A DNA stretch of 39,514 nucleotides, taken from the NCBI GenBank assembly GCA_002731275.1, contig PCBK01000145.1:1-39514 (forward strand), written 5' to 3'. The DNA is from Deltaproteobacteria bacterium. GTDB lineage: Bacteria; Myxococcota_C; UBA6777. This document shows, in pieces, positions 918 to 39,514 of the stretch. The notes under the pieces were generated by a model. It searched no databases. It had not been told where the DNA came from and saw only the letters and a list, made by a program, of their open reading frames with translations. The translations under genes and the position numbers were made by a program. Position 1 is the stretch's first letter. Every line of letters begins with the position of its first letter.

Positions 918-2624
918 TCACTCATCGCCAGTGTCGATGGGACGAAACATCCCCAAACCAAAGTGTGCGCCATACCCAACAGCAAGTGGCCCTCGCACCG
1001 GCTTCGAGAAGGTCACCCGAAATCCCTTGGGACTCGCACGACTTCGTCGCCCTCCCCCTCCACGAACGCGCTCCGTCCTGAACTTGTACCAGGCGACCTC
1101 CTTGCCACCCATGACACAAGCCTCTTCCTCGATCGACTCGATACATAACGCCGGCTCATCCTCGCGAAGATACGCCAATAATAAACGCTCCAAGTCGTGC
1201 TTTGGCGAACCAATTTGCCAACCACGTTCATCACACTTAGGCGCACCACTCTTCTTCGTCTTCGGGTGGCGAGTCGCCACAAAAGGCGTCACAGACGTCC
1301 ACACCTTCGACTTTTCAAAGAGCACACATTGACCAGCTTCCTCCTTGAAGCCCGCAAAGTCCTCCGGCCGCCCAACACCTAACAACACGAGCTGAAGCGT
1401 CCTCCCAGACCAAGATAACTTCGAAAAGCGTTCAAGCACACGCCGCGCCTCCTCGTCAAAACCCATCCGCGCATACAATGTAAGATGAGAGATGTGACCC
1501 CGACGCTGCCTCCCTGATGATTCCGGCAAGATAAACACATGACGATGCCCCTTCAACGCGTTCTTATCATCATCACATCCAGAGAGCACCGTGGGTATGG
1601 TTTTGATGCTGCCCCCTTCCACCATTTTATCCGCATAAGACACGAACGCCCTGTGCAATCCTCCCCCAACCTCGATGGCTTCCAACAGACGCGGCAACAC
1701 CTGATCCGCCACAGCAAAACGTGCAACAGTCGGAGAGACAACTCTCTTCCGATTCGCGAGCGCATAAGAGCGCCTGGGACGCATCGCCTCTTTGGGCCGT
1801 CGATAATCCACCCACACACTCCCTGGCGGCCACTGCCAACCGTCCTTGTGAATGTCTGCTGTGTCGAGCTGCAGCGCCTCAAACATCCCAATGGGTAAAG
1901 CATCTTCTATCTTCTGCAGATCCTTCTTGGTGAGCTTGACTTTGGAGACATCCTTCCCCTTTTCATAGGCTTTTTGTTGCTTGATGAAGAGATCTTGTGC
2001 CTCTCTCCTCTCCTTCACACGTTCACGCCATAACCCATAATCAGAAGGCGTCATCGCCTGCAAAAGACGAATCTTTTCATCACCTTCAGGAAGCGCTCCC
2101 TCATCCTCTACAGGACACACATTCATCTCTGGGATATTGGATGGCATCGGAACAAACGACGCCTCAACCCATGACTCTGCTCGCCCAAGATACCCCATCT
2201 TCTCAAGTAATGAAGAGAGAGTGTCTTGCAATGCACTTGAGAGAGAGAGGTCCGGCCAGTACATCCATAGAGGTTGATACTCATTACCTTCCTCTCTCTT
2301 CACATGCAAAAAGGCGTCGAGAATCTTCGTCGTCTTATCCTGTGACGTTTTACCATCGAGAGCGCCGAGGGGCATATAATGTCTCGTGTGTGCAACGACA
2401 CCATCTGGAATATGATAGTGAGGCTGAACAGAGACGAGTTGTTCGATCAGCGCCCTCATCTGCGCCTCTTCAATGTCTCCACCTTTGAGATGCCAGCAGG
2501 CGAGTAACGCACGGTATATCCGCCAGGGTGAAGGCGGCCACTCGATCGCACCTTCGTTGACCTGACGGTCCCAGGGCGTCGCGTGATACCGACCCGTCAA
2601 AAAGCGAAATTTGATCGCAAACAT
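918..2624 (-). CDS. csb2: Type I-G CRISPR-associated Cas5-Cas6 fusion Csb2 (GSU0054 family)
   Basis: A 568-residue RAMP-type protein. In type I-G (formerly I-U) systems Csb2 combines the Cas5 role (holding the crRNA 5' handle in Cascade) with the Cas6 role (cutting pre-crRNA). The N-terminus, RFLTGRYHATPW followed by NEGAIEWPPSPWRIYRALLA, is the family signature. The C-terminal region is Gly/Arg-rich near residues 525-545 (RVRGGGGRRSR) and ends in a glycine-rich RAMP-like stretch. The ATG at 2624 has a strong GAGGGGGG four bases upstream. It is the last gene of the cas3-csx17-csb1-csb2 operon and starts 10 bp after csb1 ends. I identified the family from the sequence but could not point to the Cas6 catalytic residues. 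Confidence 0.93.
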   Translation of the reverse strand: MFAIKFRFLTGRYHATPWDRQVNEGAIEWPPSPWRIYRALLACWHLKGGDIEEAQMRALIEQLVSVQPHYHIPDGVVAHTRHYMPLGALDGKTSQDKTTKILDAFLHVKREEGNEYQPLWMYWPDLSLSSALQDTLSSLLEKMGYLGRAESWVEASFVPMPSNIPEMNVCPVEDEGALPEGDEKIRLLQAMTPSDYGLWRERVKERREAQDLFIKQQKAYEKGKDVSKVKLTKKDLQKIEDALPIGMFEALQLDTADIHKDGWQWPPGSVWVDYRRPKEAMRPRRSYALANRKRVVSPTVARFAVADQVLPRLLEAIEVGGGLHRAFVSYADKMVEGGSIKTIPTVLSGCDDDKNALKGHRHVFILPESSGRQRRGHISHLTLYARMGFDEEARRVLERFSKLSWSGRTLQLVLLGVGRPEDFAGFKEEAGQCVLFEKSKVWTSVTPFVATRHPKTKKSGAPKCDERGWQIGSPKHDLERLLLAYLREDEPALCIESIEEEACVMGGKEVAWYKFRTERVRGGGGRRSRASPKGFRVTFSKPVRGPLAVGYGAHFGLGMFRPIDTGDE

Positions 2625-2634
2625 ATATCCCCCC

Positions 2635-5828
<3,194 letters not shown>

Positions 5829-5870
5829 CAGACGTACTCCTCATGTGGGAAAAGGGGGTTTGTTTCTATT

Positions 5871-5948
5871 GGGGGATTTAAAATCCCCCTGGCGCGAACT
5901 TCGTTCTTGCCTTCCCCAACAGTTGCACCCCTCACGGGGTGAGGTTGG
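5871..5948. repeat. Three-hairpin element between cas3 and csx17
   Basis: Three adjacent inverted repeats fill the gap between cas3 and csx17. The first (5871-5889) has perfect 9-bp arms GGGGGATTT/AAATCCCCC around one base. The second (5891-5911) has imperfect 9-base arms around TTC. The third (5916-5948) has an inner stem CACCCC/GGGGTG with loop TCAC and outer arms CCAAC/GTTGG. There is no long T-run on the minus strand right after the hairpins, so it does not look like a simple terminator. In the operon mRNA it could block decay, cause partial termination, or simply be a dispersed palindromic element. A similar CCCC-TACGG-GG motif lies in the right-hand array near 38,676. Confidence 0.75.
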
Positions 5949-5976
5949 CGCTTTGCTTTAGAGGACATAGGGGTTT

Positions 5977-8538
5977 TTATTTGCATGGAGTTTCCTTCTC
6001 TTTGCAGGCGTTGGCGCTACCTTCCCAGTCAGACAATCGCAAAATCGTCTCCAAGAATGCCATTCGAAATGGACCCAACTCAGCATCATCTCTCAACGCG
6101 AGCATCCGCTCTAGCCAGCTCCCGGCTCCCATTTTCATCACGGAGAGATCGAGCTTGAAGGATTCGAGTGTTCTCCCCTCACAGAGTCCGTTGATGGCTG
6201 GCAACACAATCCCCGCAGGAAGCTCGTCACCATCCCACACGCCCCTCGCGTACAAACACGTATCATCTGTGGGGACGTTCTCACCAGGCAATGCACGTAA
6301 CGAGAGCCGAATTTTCCCGTGGTGTGACGCGATCAGGTAGGCAATGAGATCTTTCTTTTCGGTCTCTTGCTCATCTTGTAACCACGCAAGCGCCGACGCC
6401 AGCTCATGTCGGAAGTACTTTCTGCTTGTGTTACCGCGATGGTGATTGGATTTCGCCCAAAAGATCCCCTCTCCACTTTCAGGTGGAGGTTCAAGCTCCG
6501 TTTTGTCATCACCTCGAAAAGGAGATAACAACCGATCTTGGAACACATGATGCGCCTTTCCGACATCGTGCCATTGTGCAGATCTTTTCAGCGCATATTT
6601 GTATGGTTCGAGTTCATCGAGATGGCCAAAGTGAGGGAGAATGTCCTCAAGAGCCTTCACCACATCATCGAGGTGCTCTGTCAACGAAAGCCAACAACCT
6701 TTTTTGTTCGGGCGGCTTGTGCTTGTGTCGTGATCGTCATCCATCCCATTGAAGCGTTTTGCATCCTCAAGACTCACAAGCTCAACAGCAGGAGCTCCCT
6801 TTTTGGGTTTCTCACCAGTCCACCCTAGCGACGCATCGTAGCCACCAGCCCTTTGACGCAACATGATAGTCATTCCAGGCTGGAGCTTTGTGTAACCTTC
6901 TTTGGGTGTCCAATCAGGTGCGACACCTCGCCACTCTTTGTCCAGGTAATCCCACGTCCAGGCGTCTGCTTCTTTGAGAGACTTCAGAAAATCTTTGGCA
7001 GCACCGATCGAAACAGCACATAGCTCGTCGCGTACAGGCTGCAGACACTCTTCTTTTGAAGGTGCCTCCTTGAAATCACGCCAATAAAAACGGACATCTG
7101 TATCTTCTTCGTCTCTGATATAGCCAGAGATATCGAGCTGGTCACCACATAGATCTGGTGTTGTATCAAACAAGGCAAGAAGATCTTTTCTCCGGAGCAC
7201 TGGCCGATAAACTTTGGGGGGGTTGTATGTATCTGCGATCGCCTTGAGAGAACCAGGTCCAGCATCATCTCCCAACTTCTCCAACAAGTGACGAGCAACA
7301 AACATCTCTTCTAGCGTGTAGGGTAAAGACTCGCCTCGAAGGGTATTCTCTTCTTTCTTCAGCGCGTCGATAGTGTCTTTGTCTGTGTTGAGATCGATCC
7401 AATAGATCGAGGCATGTGTATTCTTTCCTCCCTCGCGATTGCATCGACCAAATCGCTGCACAAGAGAAGGCCACATTGCAAGCTCTGTGATCATCATATC
7501 TGCGGAGATATCGAGACCAGCTTCGATCGCCTGCGTAGCGACAACGATCTCGGCCTTGCGCTTCTCAGGAAACAAGGATGATTCAAGTGCTCTGCGTTCA
7601 TAGGGTCGAAAGCGGGAATGGATCAACGCGAGCTTGCCTTCATCGAAGTGCGCCTTCAATGCTTTATACACACCTTGTGCACGATCGACCCTGTTGAGGA
7701 CAACGAGGGTAAAGTGCCCATCTTTATGGAGCTCTTTGATCTTGTTTGCGAGATCAATGGTGTATTGTTTTCGCTCATCTTTTTTGGAATACCCAAACAC
7801 AACATCATCGAGCCTTTGAATCTTTTTACGAGCCCCAACCCTCGCCTGTACCTGAGCGATCGTCAGATCATTTTCAGAGAGGCATACAGATGTGTACTCA
7901 CCGTGGGGCTTTTTGTAATCGATGGTCTCGATTTGATGGGTGTCGAGGGTGGCGCTCATCCACATCGTATGCGTTGGACCAAACGCTCCCATTTTTTGTC
8001 TGAACGCCTGTAATTGCGCACCTGTCTCGATCCCAACACCAATGAGCTGTGTTTCATCAAAGACCCACATCACGTCATTATTGAGCCACCCAAAGTGCAT
8101 CGGCCAGCGATAAGGCCCCATCGCATACCCACGATTCAGCGCACGAGACAACAAGATATCTTGTGTCCCAATCAACAACGCAGGGCGCTCGTTTTGGGTA
8201 AGCCACTTATCATCAATCTCTCCCCCCATCATGATCGAGACGAGAGGTTTCTCCTCCTCAGAGATGAGACCAACGTCAACCGCCTTCTCAAACCAATCTT
8301 TTGCAACGTCATGTGTTTGTCGAACGAGCGATCTCATCGGCAAGCAATAGACTAATCTTTTCGGATTGTTCGTGTCTTTTTGATGGTGTTTGAAGAACCA
8401 TGCAAGGAGCACGGCGGCCGTCTTCCCCAAACCTGTAGGGATATCCAACAACTCAGGCCACACATTTGTCGCCAACTCTTGTTGGTATGGGTAGGGATCG
8501 TGCCCTGTGATCGTGCGAAAGAATTCGGTATACTCCAA
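5977..8538 (-). CDS. cas3: Type I-G CRISPR-associated helicase-nuclease Cas3 (helicase then C-terminal HD)
   Basis: An 853-residue Cas3 that would unwind and degrade target DNA after Cascade recruits it. Superfamily-2 helicase motifs are seen in order: motif I DIPTGLGKT (32-40), motif II FDETQ (160-164, as DETQ not DExH, as is usual for this subtype), motif III SATLDT (195-200) and motif VI QRFGRCNREG (361-370). The HD nuclease is C-terminal, with QWHDVGK (H657-D658), H711 and the pair HH at 739-740. HD after the helicase is the I-G arrangement; in I-E Cas3 HD comes first. The start is a TTG at 8538 with AAGGAG eight bases upstream; no ATG competes. First gene of the effector operon, 249 bp downstream of the WYL regulator. 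Confidence 0.95.
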   Translation of the reverse strand: MEYTEFFRTITGHDPYPYQQELATNVWPELLDIPTGLGKTAAVLLAWFFKHHQKDTNNPKRLVYCLPMRSLVRQTHDVAKDWFEKAVDVGLISEEEKPLVSIMMGGEIDDKWLTQNERPALLIGTQDILLSRALNRGYAMGPYRWPMHFGWLNNDVMWVFDETQLIGVGIETGAQLQAFRQKMGAFGPTHTMWMSATLDTHQIETIDYKKPHGEYTSVCLSENDLTIAQVQARVGARKKIQRLDDVVFGYSKKDERKQYTIDLANKIKELHKDGHFTLVVLNRVDRAQGVYKALKAHFDEGKLALIHSRFRPYERRALESSLFPEKRKAEIVVATQAIEAGLDISADMMITELAMWPSLVQRFGRCNREGGKNTHASIYWIDLNTDKDTIDALKKEENTLRGESLPYTLEEMFVARHLLEKLGDDAGPGSLKAIADTYNPPKVYRPVLRRKDLLALFDTTPDLCGDQLDISGYIRDEEDTDVRFYWRDFKEAPSKEECLQPVRDELCAVSIGAAKDFLKSLKEADAWTWDYLDKEWRGVAPDWTPKEGYTKLQPGMTIMLRQRAGGYDASLGWTGEKPKKGAPAVELVSLEDAKRFNGMDDDHDTSTSRPNKKGCWLSLTEHLDDVVKALEDILPHFGHLDELEPYKYALKRSAQWHDVGKAHHVFQDRLLSPFRGDDKTELEPPPESGEGIFWAKSNHHRGNTSRKYFRHELASALAWLQDEQETEKKDLIAYLIASHHGKIRLSLRALPGENVPTDDTCLYARGVWDGDELPAGIVLPAINGLCEGRTLESFKLDLSVMKMGAGSWLERMLALRDDAELGPFRMAFLETILRLSDWEGSANACKEKETPCK

Positions 8539-8613
8539 GGTGACTTCTCCTTCTCGTTAGATCATACAAAGAGAAATTAAGTTCTTACCTCTTCAACGAA
8601 AGAAGAGATATAC

Positions 8614-8648
8614 ATCTGACAGATCATGTCATTTTCACGTTAACGTGA
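8614..8648. promoter_or_regulatory. Two palindromes upstream of cas3 (candidate regulator sites)
   Basis: In the 249-bp gap between the WYL regulator and cas3 there is a perfect 14-bp palindrome TCACGTTAACGTGA (8635-8648) and, 10 bp nearer cas3, an 11-bp one with arms ATCTG/CAGAT (8614-8624). They sit about 75-110 bp upstream of the cas3 start, where a promoter for the operon would be expected. I could not assign clear -35/-10 boxes. Binding by the adjacent WYL protein is an inference from position only. Confidence 0.4.
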
Positions 8649-8787
8649 TATTTCAACGGTCTCAAAACGAATTGTAACAAGAGGGTGTGACAAATAGCGT
8701 CAAACCCACCAGATGTTCAGGAAACCCCGACACAACAATAGTGACATAAACACCTAAAAACATGATAGATACATGCACACACTTTTT

Positions 8788-9750
8788 TCACATAGGTTGT
8801 TGGAGGAAGGCGCTCACAGCCTCCAATACTTGCTGCTTAAGGCTTTGTGGCTCTAACACATGACAATCGGGTCCAATATAAAGGATACGACGCACGATCG
8901 CAGCTTCACCACCGCTCTCGAAGGCGATCTCGACACCATCTTCGACCTCACAGATCGTTTGTGTTGGATGAAAAAAGAGCTCCTTGGCCCAATGTGCGGT
9001 CTTTCCCTTGATAAGGAGACGCACCTTTTGTACGGGGGTAGAACGCATCCCATCGAAGGTTTCCTTTGTAAACTGCTCCAGATCAAAGCGTCTTTCTTCG
9101 GGGGAGAACGTCTCCTCAAGCGCGTGGGCCTGACGAATACGATTTGCGTTGAGGTAAACAAACTTTTGTTTTTCGAGATGGTACACGATGAGATGTAGGC
9201 CGCGAACCGTCAACTTAAGGAAGAAAGGTTCAACTTTTATCCAGCTCTCCTCGCCACGATTTGCGCTGAAGTAAAGCAACTCAAGCCGCTGATGTTCGAG
9301 TGTCGCTTGCAAAAGAAGCTCATGAAAAGAAGCTTGTATTTGTGGCGTGGGAAAATCGGTCTGATAGACTTGTGGTAATTGCTGTGCCTTCCGCCAACTT
9401 TGGCCTTTTTGAAAGCGTTCAACGCGCTCAAGTGCGGCGGCAAAAGAGTCGAAGAAAGGGAGCTGTTCGAGGGCTTTGAGGGCGTGCTCTTTCCCAACCC
9501 ACAGCGCAGCGAGTTCATCAGGCGTGAAGGCGATCCCTGGAAAGCGATACCAATCTTCGAGATGATATTGATAAGCGTTCTCATGTGAACCAAACACGAT
9601 GGGAAAGCGCGCAGAGAGCGCTTCGAGATCCCGACGCAATGTTCGATCTGACACATCAAATTCAGCCATAAGCTCCTGGAAGGAACACTTCCCAGCTCCT
9701 AACTTGAGTAAGATCTCAAAGCGCCGATTCGTCGTCTCTGTAGAACTCAT
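8788..9750 (-). CDS. WYL-domain transcriptional regulator (HTH + WYL), cas-associated
   Basis: A 320-residue protein with an N-terminal winged HTH of DeoR type (SFQELMAEFDVSDRTLRRDL, about residues 21-40) and a following WYL domain (about residues 130-220, with RLELLYFSANRGEESWIKVEP and a LHLIVYHLEKQK segment). WYL regulators often sit beside CRISPR-Cas and other defence operons and can respond to nucleotides or single-stranded DNA. I chose the ATG at 9750 because GAGAGG lies six bases upstream; a TTG two codons earlier also exists. It is on the same strand as cas3 and directly upstream, so it is the likely regulator of the operon, and may be co-transcribed with it. Confidence 0.88.
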   Translation of the reverse strand: MSSTETTNRRFEILLKLGAGKCSFQELMAEFDVSDRTLRRDLEALSARFPIVFGSHENAYQYHLEDWYRFPGIAFTPDELAALWVGKEHALKALEQLPFFDSFAAALERVERFQKGQSWRKAQQLPQVYQTDFPTPQIQASFHELLLQATLEHQRLELLYFSANRGEESWIKVEPFFLKLTVRGLHLIVYHLEKQKFVYLNANRIRQAHALEETFSPEERRFDLEQFTKETFDGMRSTPVQKVRLLIKGKTAHWAKELFFHPTQTICEVEDGVEIAFESGGEAAIVRRILYIGPDCHVLEPQSLKQQVLEAVSAFLQQPM

Positions 9751-9911
9751 CCACAACCTCTCATATTTCTTTTTCCTCTACACTTTTTTTCTTGCAGTAG
9801 CCTTATATCCGCATAAGACGGTAATATATCACAAATCCCACAAAAGACCACCCTCCTTTTTGGCTGAAAAAGAAGCGTTTTGACAACAAGCGTAGGATAG
9901 ACTCGAATGCG

Positions 9912-10510
9912 ACTCCGACAGACGTTGCACCAGCACAGCACGCTGAACCGCACTTGAACACCCACAGAATCGGGACTCTGCCTCCTGCAGAGTCCTTCTT
10001 GAAGGGGCTTCTCTTCGGGCTTACTTGCCTCGTGCGCTTGCAATATACGCCCCAACAACATGGGGCAAACGATATACACGGGATTTAGCTTAAAATCGGT
10101 TCCAGCGGACGTTGCACTTGCGTCCAAGGCAAGCGCCCTCGTCGGGCTGATTTGCCTCGTACGCTTTGCAACATACGCCTCGACAAACTCTCCTCCCTGA
10201 GCCTTCGGCTCTTCCCTCCTCTCAAGCCTTTCGAGAGGAGGGATCATTTAGCCGACATGTACGGGGGATTCTAGATTTCTGTTCCGGTGGACGTTGCACT
10301 TGTGTCTCCGCAAACTCCCCTGATTCCACTCTACAATCCCCTTCCTGCAGGCGGATATAGCAAGCCATATCCTTATAGTGCTCGGTTGCTTGCGAGCTTT
10401 CAGTGGGTTTTTTGCGTCTTCACTTGCAATCATCCACCTCAACAAACTCACCTCCCTGTCGCTTCGCGACATCCCTCCTCTCAACCCTTTCGAGAGGAGG
10501 GAATAACCAA
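9912..10510. repeat. Left composite repeat array (elements C1-A1-B1)
   Basis: Three related direct elements lie head to tail. C1 starts at about 9912, A1 at 10101 and B1 at 10281. Each opens with a form of CCGGCGGACGTTGCAC. C1 is the most diverged and lacks the shared 3' part. A1 and B1 share a 3' part: GCAACATACGCCTC or a variant, ACAAACTC, then a perfect 11-bp hairpin TCCCTCCTCTC/GAGAGGAGGGA with a 9-base loop (10213-10243 and 10472-10502). B1 carries an extra middle segment with a GGATAT/ATATCC hairpin and GTGGGTTTTTTGCG. The same C-A-B order recurs at 38,630. No transposase, terminal repeats or target duplications are visible. Confidence 0.9.
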
Positions 10511-14840: not shown

Positions 14841-14887
14841 TGTCACCTGTTTGTAGCATTGTGGATCTTGGTACGGGTAAGGGAGCA

Positions 14888-15041
14888 GAACCCCCTCCGT
14901 CGGCGAAAACGCCGACACCTCCCCCTACTCGACTTCGTCGGCAAGGGGAGGGATACAAGTGGGGGGGGGAAGAACCCCCTCCGTCGGCGAAAACGCCGAC
15001 ACCTCCCCCTACTCGACTTCGTCGGCAAGGGGAGGGATACA
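14888..15041. repeat. Two direct copies of a 70-bp nested-hairpin element
   Basis: Two identical 70-bp copies lie at 14,888-14,957 and 14,972-15,041, separated by 14 bp. Each contains a hairpin GTCGGCG/CGCCGAC with loop AAAA, and a second with outer arms CCTCCCC/GGGGAGG enclosing CGAC-TTC-GTCG. They lie just upstream of the MOSC start and downstream of the valS-DUF971 operon. Perfect identity implies a recent duplication or gene conversion. In the minus direction the outer stems could act as a factor-independent roadblock, but no T-run follows. Confidence 0.93.
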
Positions 15042-37560: not shown

Positions 37561-38610
37561 ATGCAAAGTTTCCAGAAAACGACCTGGCTTGTTTTGCTCC
37601 TTGCTGTGGGTATCTACTTTATCCCAGAGCAACAAGCCAAAGCCGCTCCTATCTCGATCACGATCAGCCCTTCATCCAAAGTGATTTTTTCACAAGTCCG
37701 CATTCGTAGACGTCGCTGGAGACGTATTCGCCGACAACATTGGGACTTCAAATTGCGCGTTTGGGTACGCAAAATGTCCGGCTGGACCAAGCTGCGCACC
37801 TACACAATGTCCAAGCGTAAATGGGTCAAGAGCATATCCAAAAGGCGAGTATGCCGAGGAGTCATGGGCAAAACACGCCTCGCGATCCAGGTCGGTATTT
37901 TCTACAAAAACTGGTGGTGGAACCGCGATACACGTAAGTGGCAACGTAACTTCCTGAGTGTCAGACAAGAGCTTCATACTGTCCAGTGTGGGAACATCGC
38001 AGACGATCTTCCCCCAGGAAGCCCCGCTCCCACCAACGGTCCTCCACAAAATACACCAGACTCCGTTGCGCCTCCCGCAAACTCATTGCCCCCTCGTACC
38101 CATGCACCACCACAAACAGGGACCGTACCAGGAGATCCAGAAGGCCAACACCACGGCACCAACGATCACCATGGCACCAACGATCATCATGGAACGACAA
38201 CCACACCCCCTCCTCCAGTGGCACTCGGAAGAGGACAATTCCGTGGATATCTCCGCTCCTTCAAAAAATTGAGCTTCGACCGCAATCGTCTGCGTTCACT
38301 CAAAAACTGGACATCCCGCCTGAATGGACTCAAACTCAAAGCCTGGATGGTTCGCCGTCTGATGAAAGAGTTCTCATTCAGCAAAGGGAAGATACGAGCA
38401 GCGAGAAGGCTCTCCCGCCACATCCTCGCGCCCATTAAAACACGCCACCTCCGCCGCATCATCTCGACCTTCTCTTTTGATCAATACAAACTCAAGGCTG
38501 CGCTCTACTTCTGCCGTCGTGGGATCGCAGATCCACTCAATCTCCACAAAGTGTCTGGTGAATTCTCCTTCAGCTCCTACAAAAACAAATTCCTCAAACG
38601 CTGCCACTGA
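37561..38610 (+). CDS. Secreted DUF4476-domain protein with a His/Pro-rich linker
   Basis: A 349-residue exported protein. The signal peptide (WLVLLLAVGIYFIPEQQAKA) ends near residue 28. Residues 30-145 form a very basic N-terminal domain (RIRRRRWRRIRRQHW). Then comes a Pro-rich linker with three repeats of the type DHHGTN (about 200-215), and from about 225 a C-terminal DUF4476-like domain with repeated F-S-F-x-x-x-K/R units (MKEFSFSKGKIRAA, ISTFSFDQYKLKAAL, GEFSFSSYKNKFL). The His-rich linker could bind metal. GAGGAGG lies four bases before the ATG. The repeat array starts 20 bp after the stop. Function unknown. Confidence 0.8.
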   Translation: MQSFQKTTWLVLLLAVGIYFIPEQQAKAAPISITISPSSKVIFSQVRIRRRRWRRIRRQHWDFKLRVWVRKMSGWTKLRTYTMSKRKWVKSISKRRVCRGVMGKTRLAIQVGIFYKNWWWNRDTRKWQRNFLSVRQELHTVQCGNIADDLPPGSPAPTNGPPQNTPDSVAPPANSLPPRTHAPPQTGTVPGDPEGQHHGTNDHHGTNDHHGTTTTPPPPVALGRGQFRGYLRSFKKLSFDRNRLRSLKNWTSRLNGLKLKAWMVRRLMKEFSFSKGKIRAARRLSRHILAPIKTRHLRRIISTFSFDQYKLKAALYFCRRGIADPLNLHKVSGEFSFSSYKNKFLKRCH

Positions 38611-38629: not shown

Positions 38630-39514
38630 ATCCGGCGGACGTTGCACCATCGCAGCGCGCTGGACCGCATTTGAACCCCTACGGGGTTAGGGCTTTACCG
38701 CCTACAATGCTCTTCTTGGAGAGGCTTTTCTTCGTGGCTGATTTGCAACATACGCCTCAACAAACTCACCACCCTAAGCCTTCGGCTCTTCCCTCCTCTC
38801 AACTCTTTCGAGAGGAGAGACTACTTCCCCGACATATGCGAAAGATACTCGGAAACTGCTCCGGCGGACGTTGCACTTGCGTCCAAAGCAAGCGCCCTCA
38901 TCGGGCTGATTTGCTTCGTGCGCTTTGCAACATATGCCTCGACAAACTCACCACCCTGTCGCTCCGCTCCTTCCCTCCTCTCAAGCCTTTCGAGAGGAGG
39001 GACCAATTACCCGATATGCGCGGGGGAAGCTCGAATGCTGATCCGGCGGACGTTGCACTTGTGTCTCCGCAAACTCCCCTGATTCCACCAAACAATCCCC
39101 TACTTGTAGGCGGATATAGCAAGCCATATCCTTAGAAGGCTCCCTTTCTTGCGTACTTGCAGTGGGTTTTTTGCGTCTTCACTTGCAACATACGCCTCAA
39201 CAAACTCACCACCCTGTCGCTCCGCTCCTTCCCTCCTCTCAAGCCTTTCGAGAGGAGGGAACAATTAACCGATATGCGCGAGGGAAACTCGAATGCTGAT
39301 CCGGCGGACGTTGCACTTGTGTCTCCGCAAACTCCCCTGGTTCCACTATTTCATCCCTCACTTTCAGGCGGATATAGCAAGGCTATATCCTTGGATTCCC
39401 TTTTGCTTTCGAGCTTGTAGTGGGTTTTTTGCGTCTTCACTTGCAATCATCCGCCTCAACAAACTCTCCACCCTGTCGCTCCGCTCCTTCCCTCCTCTCA
39501 AGCCTTTCGAGAGG
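38630..39514. repeat. Right composite repeat array (elements C2-A2-B2-B3), cut by window end
   Basis: The same elements as at 9,912-10,510, in the same order and orientation, with an extra B. C2 starts at about 38,630, A2 at 38,859, B2 at 39,041 and B3 at 39,299. A2 and B2 are about 80-90% identical to A1 and B1 by eye. Each ends with the TCCCTCCTCTC/GAGAGGAGGGA stem (C2 has one mismatch). In the B elements two parts vary: a 19-base stretch after GATTCCAC and a stretch before GTGGGTTTTTTGCG. The GGATAT/ATATCC hairpin between them is kept, and in B3 it is extended to 8 bp by a matching change. The array runs off the right edge. Confidence 0.92.

Follow-up and report, generated by a model that had tools for sequence, protein, structure and literature searches.

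The window analyzed here, an entire contig of 39,514 nt (PCBK01000145.1; C134), is part of a 10.75-Mb, 200-contig genome that is 94.65% complete and 5.5% contaminated. Few relatives were present in the collection, and for one protein encoded in the window, the closest matches were to Myxococcota/Deltaproteobacteria metagenome genomes at 57 to 63% identity. The effector genes of a type I-G (I-U/Dpsyc) CRISPR system, Cas56g/Csb2, Cas7g/Csb1, Cas8g/Csx17, and Cas3g, occupy positions 918 to 9756 on the minus strand. A 42-nt direct repeat, seven-fold at positions 188 to 553, lies within an open frame (26 to 754) and is probably a 14-residue protein repeat. The window also contains two arrays of composite repeats, both on the plus strand. 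Direct reading and a repeat search showed that the left array (9912 to 10502) has the unit order C-A-B. The right array (38631 to 39514) has the order C-A-B(-B) and runs into the contig end. The left array was considered as a possible CRISPR; it lies beside the type I-G cas operon but has no repeat-spacer layout. It also adjoins a WYL regulator gene, 150 bp upstream of which it is located, an exception to the placement at gene 3′ ends described below.

In each unit, a long stem, P1, encloses a body of one of three types (A, B, or C); downstream of P1 are a linker and two hairpins, the short P2 and H, whose 11-bp stem is purine on one side and pyrimidine on the other. P1 is formed by the 5′ box and a downstream arm of the same unit (GGCGGACGTTGCA / TGCAACATACGCC). 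As a sequence-only reading of the locus had claimed, the box CGGACGTTGCAC starts three elements of the left array, near 9919 (C, as CAGACGTTGCAC), 10105 (A), and 10287 (B), and A and B share the 3′ hairpin TCCCTCCTCTC-9 nt-GAGAGGAGGGA. The C unit (9912 to 10050) comprises the 5′ box, the C body, and the 3′ arm of P1 (TTGCAATATACGCC); third strand, P2, and H are all missing. The A unit (10100 to 10243) is complete and scored 173.9 bits with the covariance model R1. Its P1 arms are at 10105 to 10116 (GCGGACGTTGCA) and 10167 to 10178 (TGCAACATACGC), its P2 hairpin (GAGCC-TTC-GGCTC) is at 10199 to 10211, and its H hairpin, an 11-bp homopyrimidine/homopurine stem with a 9-nt loop, is at 10213 to 10243. 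Between it and the B unit (10282 to 10502), the last of the array, is a spacer (10244 to 10281) that contains a near-palindrome of the CCGACATGTACGG type. In the B unit, P2 (GTCGC-TTC-GCGAC) is at 10458 to 10470 and H, with which the left array ends, is at 10472 to 10502. The bases of both P2 hairpins are as that reading gave them. What it did not contain is the pyrimidine-rich stretch ahead of each P2 hairpin, CTCTCCTCCCT at 10188 to 10198 in A and CTCACCTCCCT at 10447 to 10457 in B. The minus strand of the former, AGGGAGGAGAG, is the mirror of the H purine arm, with 11 of 11 triads. In the right array, a shortened C unit with a P2/H tail (38631 to 38820) starts ∼20 bp past the stop codon of a gene at 37561 to 38610, followed by an A unit (38859 to 39002), a B unit (39042 to 39260), and a second B unit (39299 to 39514) whose H is cut by the contig end.

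The spacing of these parts is fixed. The distance from the 5′ box to H is 109 nt in A, 185 to 187 nt in B, and 170 to 171 nt in C, and that from H to the next box is 73 to 74 nt; the composite unit is 145 to 260 nt long. The unit edges are sharp and repeatable, with CTG(A/T)TCCGG on the left even where the flank is unrelated and GAGGGA on the right. RNA folding was far stronger than for shuffled sequence, with z scores of −5.9 (the left A unit) and −5.7 for A units and −7.9 for the left B unit. Hairpins are swapped within bodies: C has either CCAGCGCAGCGCGCTGG or CCAGCGGGCGGCCGCTGG, and B has either GGATATAGCAAGCCATATCC or ATGTCGCAGGCGACAT. A near-palindrome of the CCGATATATACGG type is found between units and also outside arrays.

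The units are dispersed through the genome in high numbers. BLASTN gave 105 matches for the A element, 43 for C, and at least 40 for B, and the covariance model R1, built from 34 copies of A, gave at least 150 matches in the 10.75 Mb; the census of units is a lower bound. Arrays are head-to-tail, and the units within an array all point in the same direction. The C-A-B order, which had been proposed to be conserved, recurs in the right array, but among the 68 multi-unit arrays of the genome, it is a tendency rather than a rule. The first unit was most often C (27 of 68 arrays), and the commonest step from one unit to the next was A to B (33), followed by B to B (22), C to A and C to B (15 each), B to A (9), and A to A (4). 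Because at least 34 of the 200 contigs start within ∼700 bases of a unit, as judged by covariance model matches, many arrays are truncated by the assembly; the practical effect is that arrays break assemblies. Beyond this genome, the A unit was not found by BLASTN in four relatives of the same family, and the covariance model, run on three of these and one outgroup, gave two weak matches only (E value of 0.004), both in the relative G002. No copy was present among 50,697 phage or 72,556 plasmid records or, by an exact-pattern search, in viral contigs.

Analysis of the stems showed that pairing is maintained within units. In 34 A units, 95.1% of the stem cells paired, compared to 91.4 ± 0.3 in shuffled controls, and both sides had changed in 49 cells, compared to 17.1 ± 3.0 in shuffled controls and 0 to 4 when the alignment was slid. 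For units of all types, the P1 arms of the same unit were Watson-Crick paired at 307 of 360 positions (251.8 ± 5.5 shuffled; none of 2,000 shuffles was as high), whereas pairing between a unit and the next was at chance (140 of 206, compared to 141.2 ± 4.4). Covariation is thus found within units but not between them, so the fold belongs to the individual unit. Compensatory changes in P2, which the sequence-only reading had noticed in a pair of hairpins, are general, with GAGCC/GGCTC in 71 copies, GTCAC/GTGAC in 21, and GTCGC/GCGAC in 19, and its remark that not all copies pair also holds, since P2 is partly broken in ∼30 of 150 copies. Collecting the copies and building a covariance model, as that reading had suggested, gave at least 150 units, and the stems covaried above the shuffled level; the copies share descent. 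The compensatory changes in P2 and P1 are real, but their use as a mark of selected structure is weaker than it looks, because template switching alone can make compensatory changes and keep hairpins matched (PMC8794818). Covariation alone is no proof of RNA.

A further finding concerns the 11 nt directly before P2 (CTCTCCWCCCT or CTCACCWCCCT), which run parallel to the purine arm GAGAGGAGGGA of H. The minus strand carries, in turn, the pyrimidine arm, the loop, the purine arm, P2, and a purine-rich third strand, as in class II of the bacterial intrastrand triplexes (class according to PMC4666352). The purine-motif rule places G on G-C pairs and either A or T on A-T pairs. By this rule, 122 of 163 copies were perfect across 11 triads and 28 more had a single mismatch. 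None was perfect in any of 16 other registers, where the mean dropped from 10.6 triads to between 3.1 and 6.7, and by the pyrimidine-motif rule, only 11 of 163 copies were perfect. The variation among copies follows the same rule. At third-strand positions facing A-T pairs, T was replaced by A 211 times, compared to 6 times by C or G, and at positions facing G-C pairs, 2% had changed. These counts describe the family, as the 163 third strands are not independent but share descent, and the T/A variation may represent few events. Three-part motifs with stems of at least 9 nt were present in this genome and in none of the Markov-shuffled sequence. The third strand and H could possibly form a triplex, as predicted from these fits.

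Similar layouts were found in other sequences. A second family, D, has the stem H′ CCCCCTTCCTCT..AGAGGAAGGGGG with a third strand altered to match (TCTCCATCCCCC), for example at about 1000 to 1350 of locus L187, and its own P2 variants, such as AGGCC-TCC-GGCCT; the triad counts for this family are rough and indicative, as the both-strand search mixed in wrong orientations. G002, which belongs to another genus, has two multicopy triplex-type repeat families of its own, CCCACCCCAGCCCTCCCCCGTGAACAGGGGAGGG and CCCCCCTCAATCCCCCCGTGAACGGGGGGA (loci L227 to L246). Its 366 kb contained 13 motifs, compared to none in shuffles; these were seen with 7-nt stems and missed with 9-nt stems. Within the window, two tandem 77-nt copies at 14881 to 15041 have a 7-triad layout (CCCCTCC - hairpin - CCTCCCC..GGGGAGG) in sequence unrelated to the arrays.

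Are these folds maintained as DNA or as RNA? Distinct departures from stem pairing were equally often G-U and A-C (7 each), showing no preference for G-U, and the pooled departures in P1 leaned the opposite way (∼15 G-U compared to ∼34 A-C cells). The H loop is inverted in 11 of 164 copies, and arm homogenization together with spacer inversion is the footprint of DNA template switching between the arms of inverted repeats (PMC8604942). Purine-motif triplexes form in DNA and not in RNA. No family in Rfam 15 matched above its gathering score, and a permissive search gave three sub-threshold matches to known RNA families, which were taken as chance. H was also considered as an intrinsic terminator; it is a strong hairpin but is not followed by a T run. 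Of the proposal in the sequence-only reading that the repeats are a family of structured noncoding RNAs, the structure and its covariation stand, but the lack of a G-U bias, the inverted H loops, the DNA-type third strand, and the lack of an Rfam match speak against the RNA part. Taken together, the inverted loops, the arm-matched changes, and the absence of a G-U bias are better explained by DNA hairpins and template switching than by RNA.

The arrays are positioned mostly at gene 3′ ends. Of the left neighbors, 52 of 67 had their 3′ end facing the array, compared to 12 of 28 right neighbors (Fisher P = 0.0016) and a background of 74 of 164 in 400 kb; these numbers are approximate, as gene calling used a simple criterion, an open frame of ≥200 amino acids. 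The array start is typically ∼40 bp (median, about 38 bp) past the stop codon of the codirected gene, and usually at 0 to 110 bp. Some genes seem to take their stop codon from the unit, whose left edge (CTGATCC) contains a TGA, as though the unit had landed on the end of the gene.

REP/BIME sequences of enterobacteria have been proposed to stop read-through or shield mRNA 3′ ends. By analogy, the arrays could be 3′-UTR RNA elements, cotranscribed with the upstream gene, in which P1, P2, and H stop read-through or shield the mRNA 3′ end from exonucleases. The position and one-orientation bias of the arrays, the apparent gene stops at the unit's TGA, the strong RNA folding of A and B units (z of −5.7 to −7.9), and the real covariation all fit such an element. 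However, the stems show no G-U preference, P2 is partly broken in ∼30 of 150 copies, the third strand conforms to the purine motif of DNA and not to the pyrimidine motif that RNA needs, and neither a T run after H nor an Rfam match was found. We regard this explanation as quite unlikely. A different one, also raised by the sequence-only reading, is a nonautonomous mobile element (MITE- or REPIN-like), with a transposase acting in trans and insertion 3′ of genes or of earlier copies, giving rise to arrays. The dispersed copies with sharp ends, CTG(A/T)TCCGG and GAGGGA, favor it, as do the head-to-tail arrays, since REPINs of Pseudomonas also occur in tandem clusters (PMC3116915). The genome has Y1 transposases of the IS200/IS605 type, a class that acts on hairpins, and one lies ∼1.4 kb from an array. 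There are only four Y1 matches, however. The two that were scanned are IS200/IS605 TnpA proteins (150 and 146 bits) that scored 30 and 26 bits with the RAYT model, against a cutoff of 80, and the Y1 genes on contigs C11 and C23 are not flanked by units. A REP/RAYT system was rejected on these two grounds, the transposase type and the lack of units beside two of the four genes; the absence of a RAYT among four Y1 matches, two of them scanned, is not certain at 94.65% completeness. A search of the flanks showed no inverted repeat between unit ends, and the lack of copies in phage, plasmid, and viral sequences also counts against mobility. The sharp edges and the dispersal of copies suit a mobile element, but with no RAYT found, and with IS200/IS605-type transposases of which one lies near an array, we consider it unlikely.

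An integron gene-cassette array (CALIN) was the least probable of the candidates, and we think it highly improbable. In that case, R″ (TGCAAC...) and the R′ of the next unit (...GTTGCA) would form an attC site moved by an integron integrase. The box layout and the ∼135-nt spacing do recall attC, and a true integrase is present on another contig (C77; locus L119, 4734 to 5711; TIGR02249, 450.6 bits against a cutoff of 265). Yet attC sites would need pairing between units, and covariation is within units and at chance across the would-be attC, so attC sites were excluded despite the real integrase. The same three short noncoding bodies recur everywhere in place of varied cassettes, no final R′ follows the last H of an array, and no unit is present on the integrase contig. 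That contig encodes a reverse-transcriptase-like protein and a leucine-rich-repeat-like protein, with no obvious cassette array, and the region upstream of the integrase looks duplicated near 2150 to 2260.

Comparison with known systems places the repeats close to the bacterial triplex and mosaic repeats. The PIT/BoxC/TM(ECO) elements (Holder et al. 2015, PMC4666352) likewise have a pyrimidine stem, a purine stem, and a matched third strand on one strand; like our units, they are intergenic and multicopy with lineage-specific numbers, and their loops vary more than their stems. They differ in sequence, and in our case the triplex is one module of a 145- to 260-nt composite unit, the second loop is the covarying hairpin P2, and directed tandem arrays stand at gene 3′ ends, whereas TM(ECO) has no preferred orientation. 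In segment length and triads, our motif agrees with class II of PIT/TM (6 to 15 nt; C-G-G, T-A-A, and T-A-T triads), and at only one register. With an 11-nt stem, a loop 1 of 9 nt, and the 13- to 14-nt P2 as loop 2, the module exceeds the loop limits for intrastrand triplexes, which PMC4666352 gives as 1 to 6 nt (ITxF) or 0 to 10 nt (Hoyne et al.). The stem sequences also differ from the TM(ECO)/BoxC pattern CCCTCNCCCN3-6GGGNGAGGGN3GGGNGAGGG. The module therefore looks like PIT and may work like it, yet falls outside PIT by the loop-length definition. BIMEs and REPINs (PMC3116915) are also intergenic mosaic palindromic repeats with many copies, genome specific and partly in tandem clusters, and our units, being interspersed, extragenic, palindromic, and numerous, match that description of REP/REPIN. 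In contrast, no RAYT was found here, the units are much longer and point in one direction per array, and they have no inverted REP doublet but include a triplex module. Integron attC/CALIN arrays share repeated boxes able to pair over the junction, with an integrase in the genome, but differ in the within-unit covariation, the lack of coding cassettes, and the lack of a terminal R′ seen here. MITEs are likewise short, noncoding, dispersed, and hairpin-folding; neither terminal inverted repeats nor a parent transposase was found for our units.

On balance, and with confidence only slightly better than even, we favor a genome-specific composite interspersed repeat family that acts at the level of DNA structure, with a long imperfect P1 hairpin and an intrastrand-triplex motif, and that would evolve by folding-driven template switching and recombination. 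P2 would serve as the second loop of the triplex motif, so that third strand, P2, and H form a module joined to P1. A unit that becomes single stranded during replication or transcription might fold and stall the polymerase, and the stall could lead to template switching and to recombination with other copies. Such events would produce the arm-matched changes, inverted loops, swapped bodies, and tandem amplification. Spread may combine recombination and template switching within arrays with a separate dispersal step, and copies would survive mainly where they are harmless, just past stop codons. Against this explanation, the sharp edges are at least as compatible with transposition as with slippage, and the one-orientation bias at gene 3′ ends would also suit a transcribed 3′-UTR element. 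Chromosome plasticity, a block to read-through, and protection of mRNA 3′ ends are candidate host roles. The family is best described as a composite variant of the bacterial interspersed mosaic/triplex repeats and is neither a known RNA nor a set of integron cassettes.

What is new here is the fit of the 11 nt before P2 to hairpin H, together with a second loop that is itself base paired. Intrastrand-triplex repeats of bacteria have been known for decades, and the importance of the triplex in the cell is unsettled. Triplexes of PIT and TM motifs do form in vitro, and the motifs are associated with instability, whereas in vivo footprinting of the related TM motif in E. coli failed to support the presence of a stable triplex (PMC4666352). 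The present family, with more than 150 copies and a third strand in which nearly all variation conforms to the triplex code, provides a natural data set for testing this question. There is also a caution for RNA discovery: compensatory changes, which are often taken as proof of RNA, are accompanied here by inverted loops, which suggest template switching of DNA. Finally, a bolder reading, doubtful though still a real possibility, is that the units persist in the form of folded DNA, with a stem of the cruciform type and an intrastrand triplex. The third strand would then change only within the limits of the purine-motif code, by which C is fixed opposite G and either T or A may stand opposite A. 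If true, the family would provide evidence from evolution for a role of intrastrand triplex DNA in the living cell, in the form of a composite element at gene 3′ ends.
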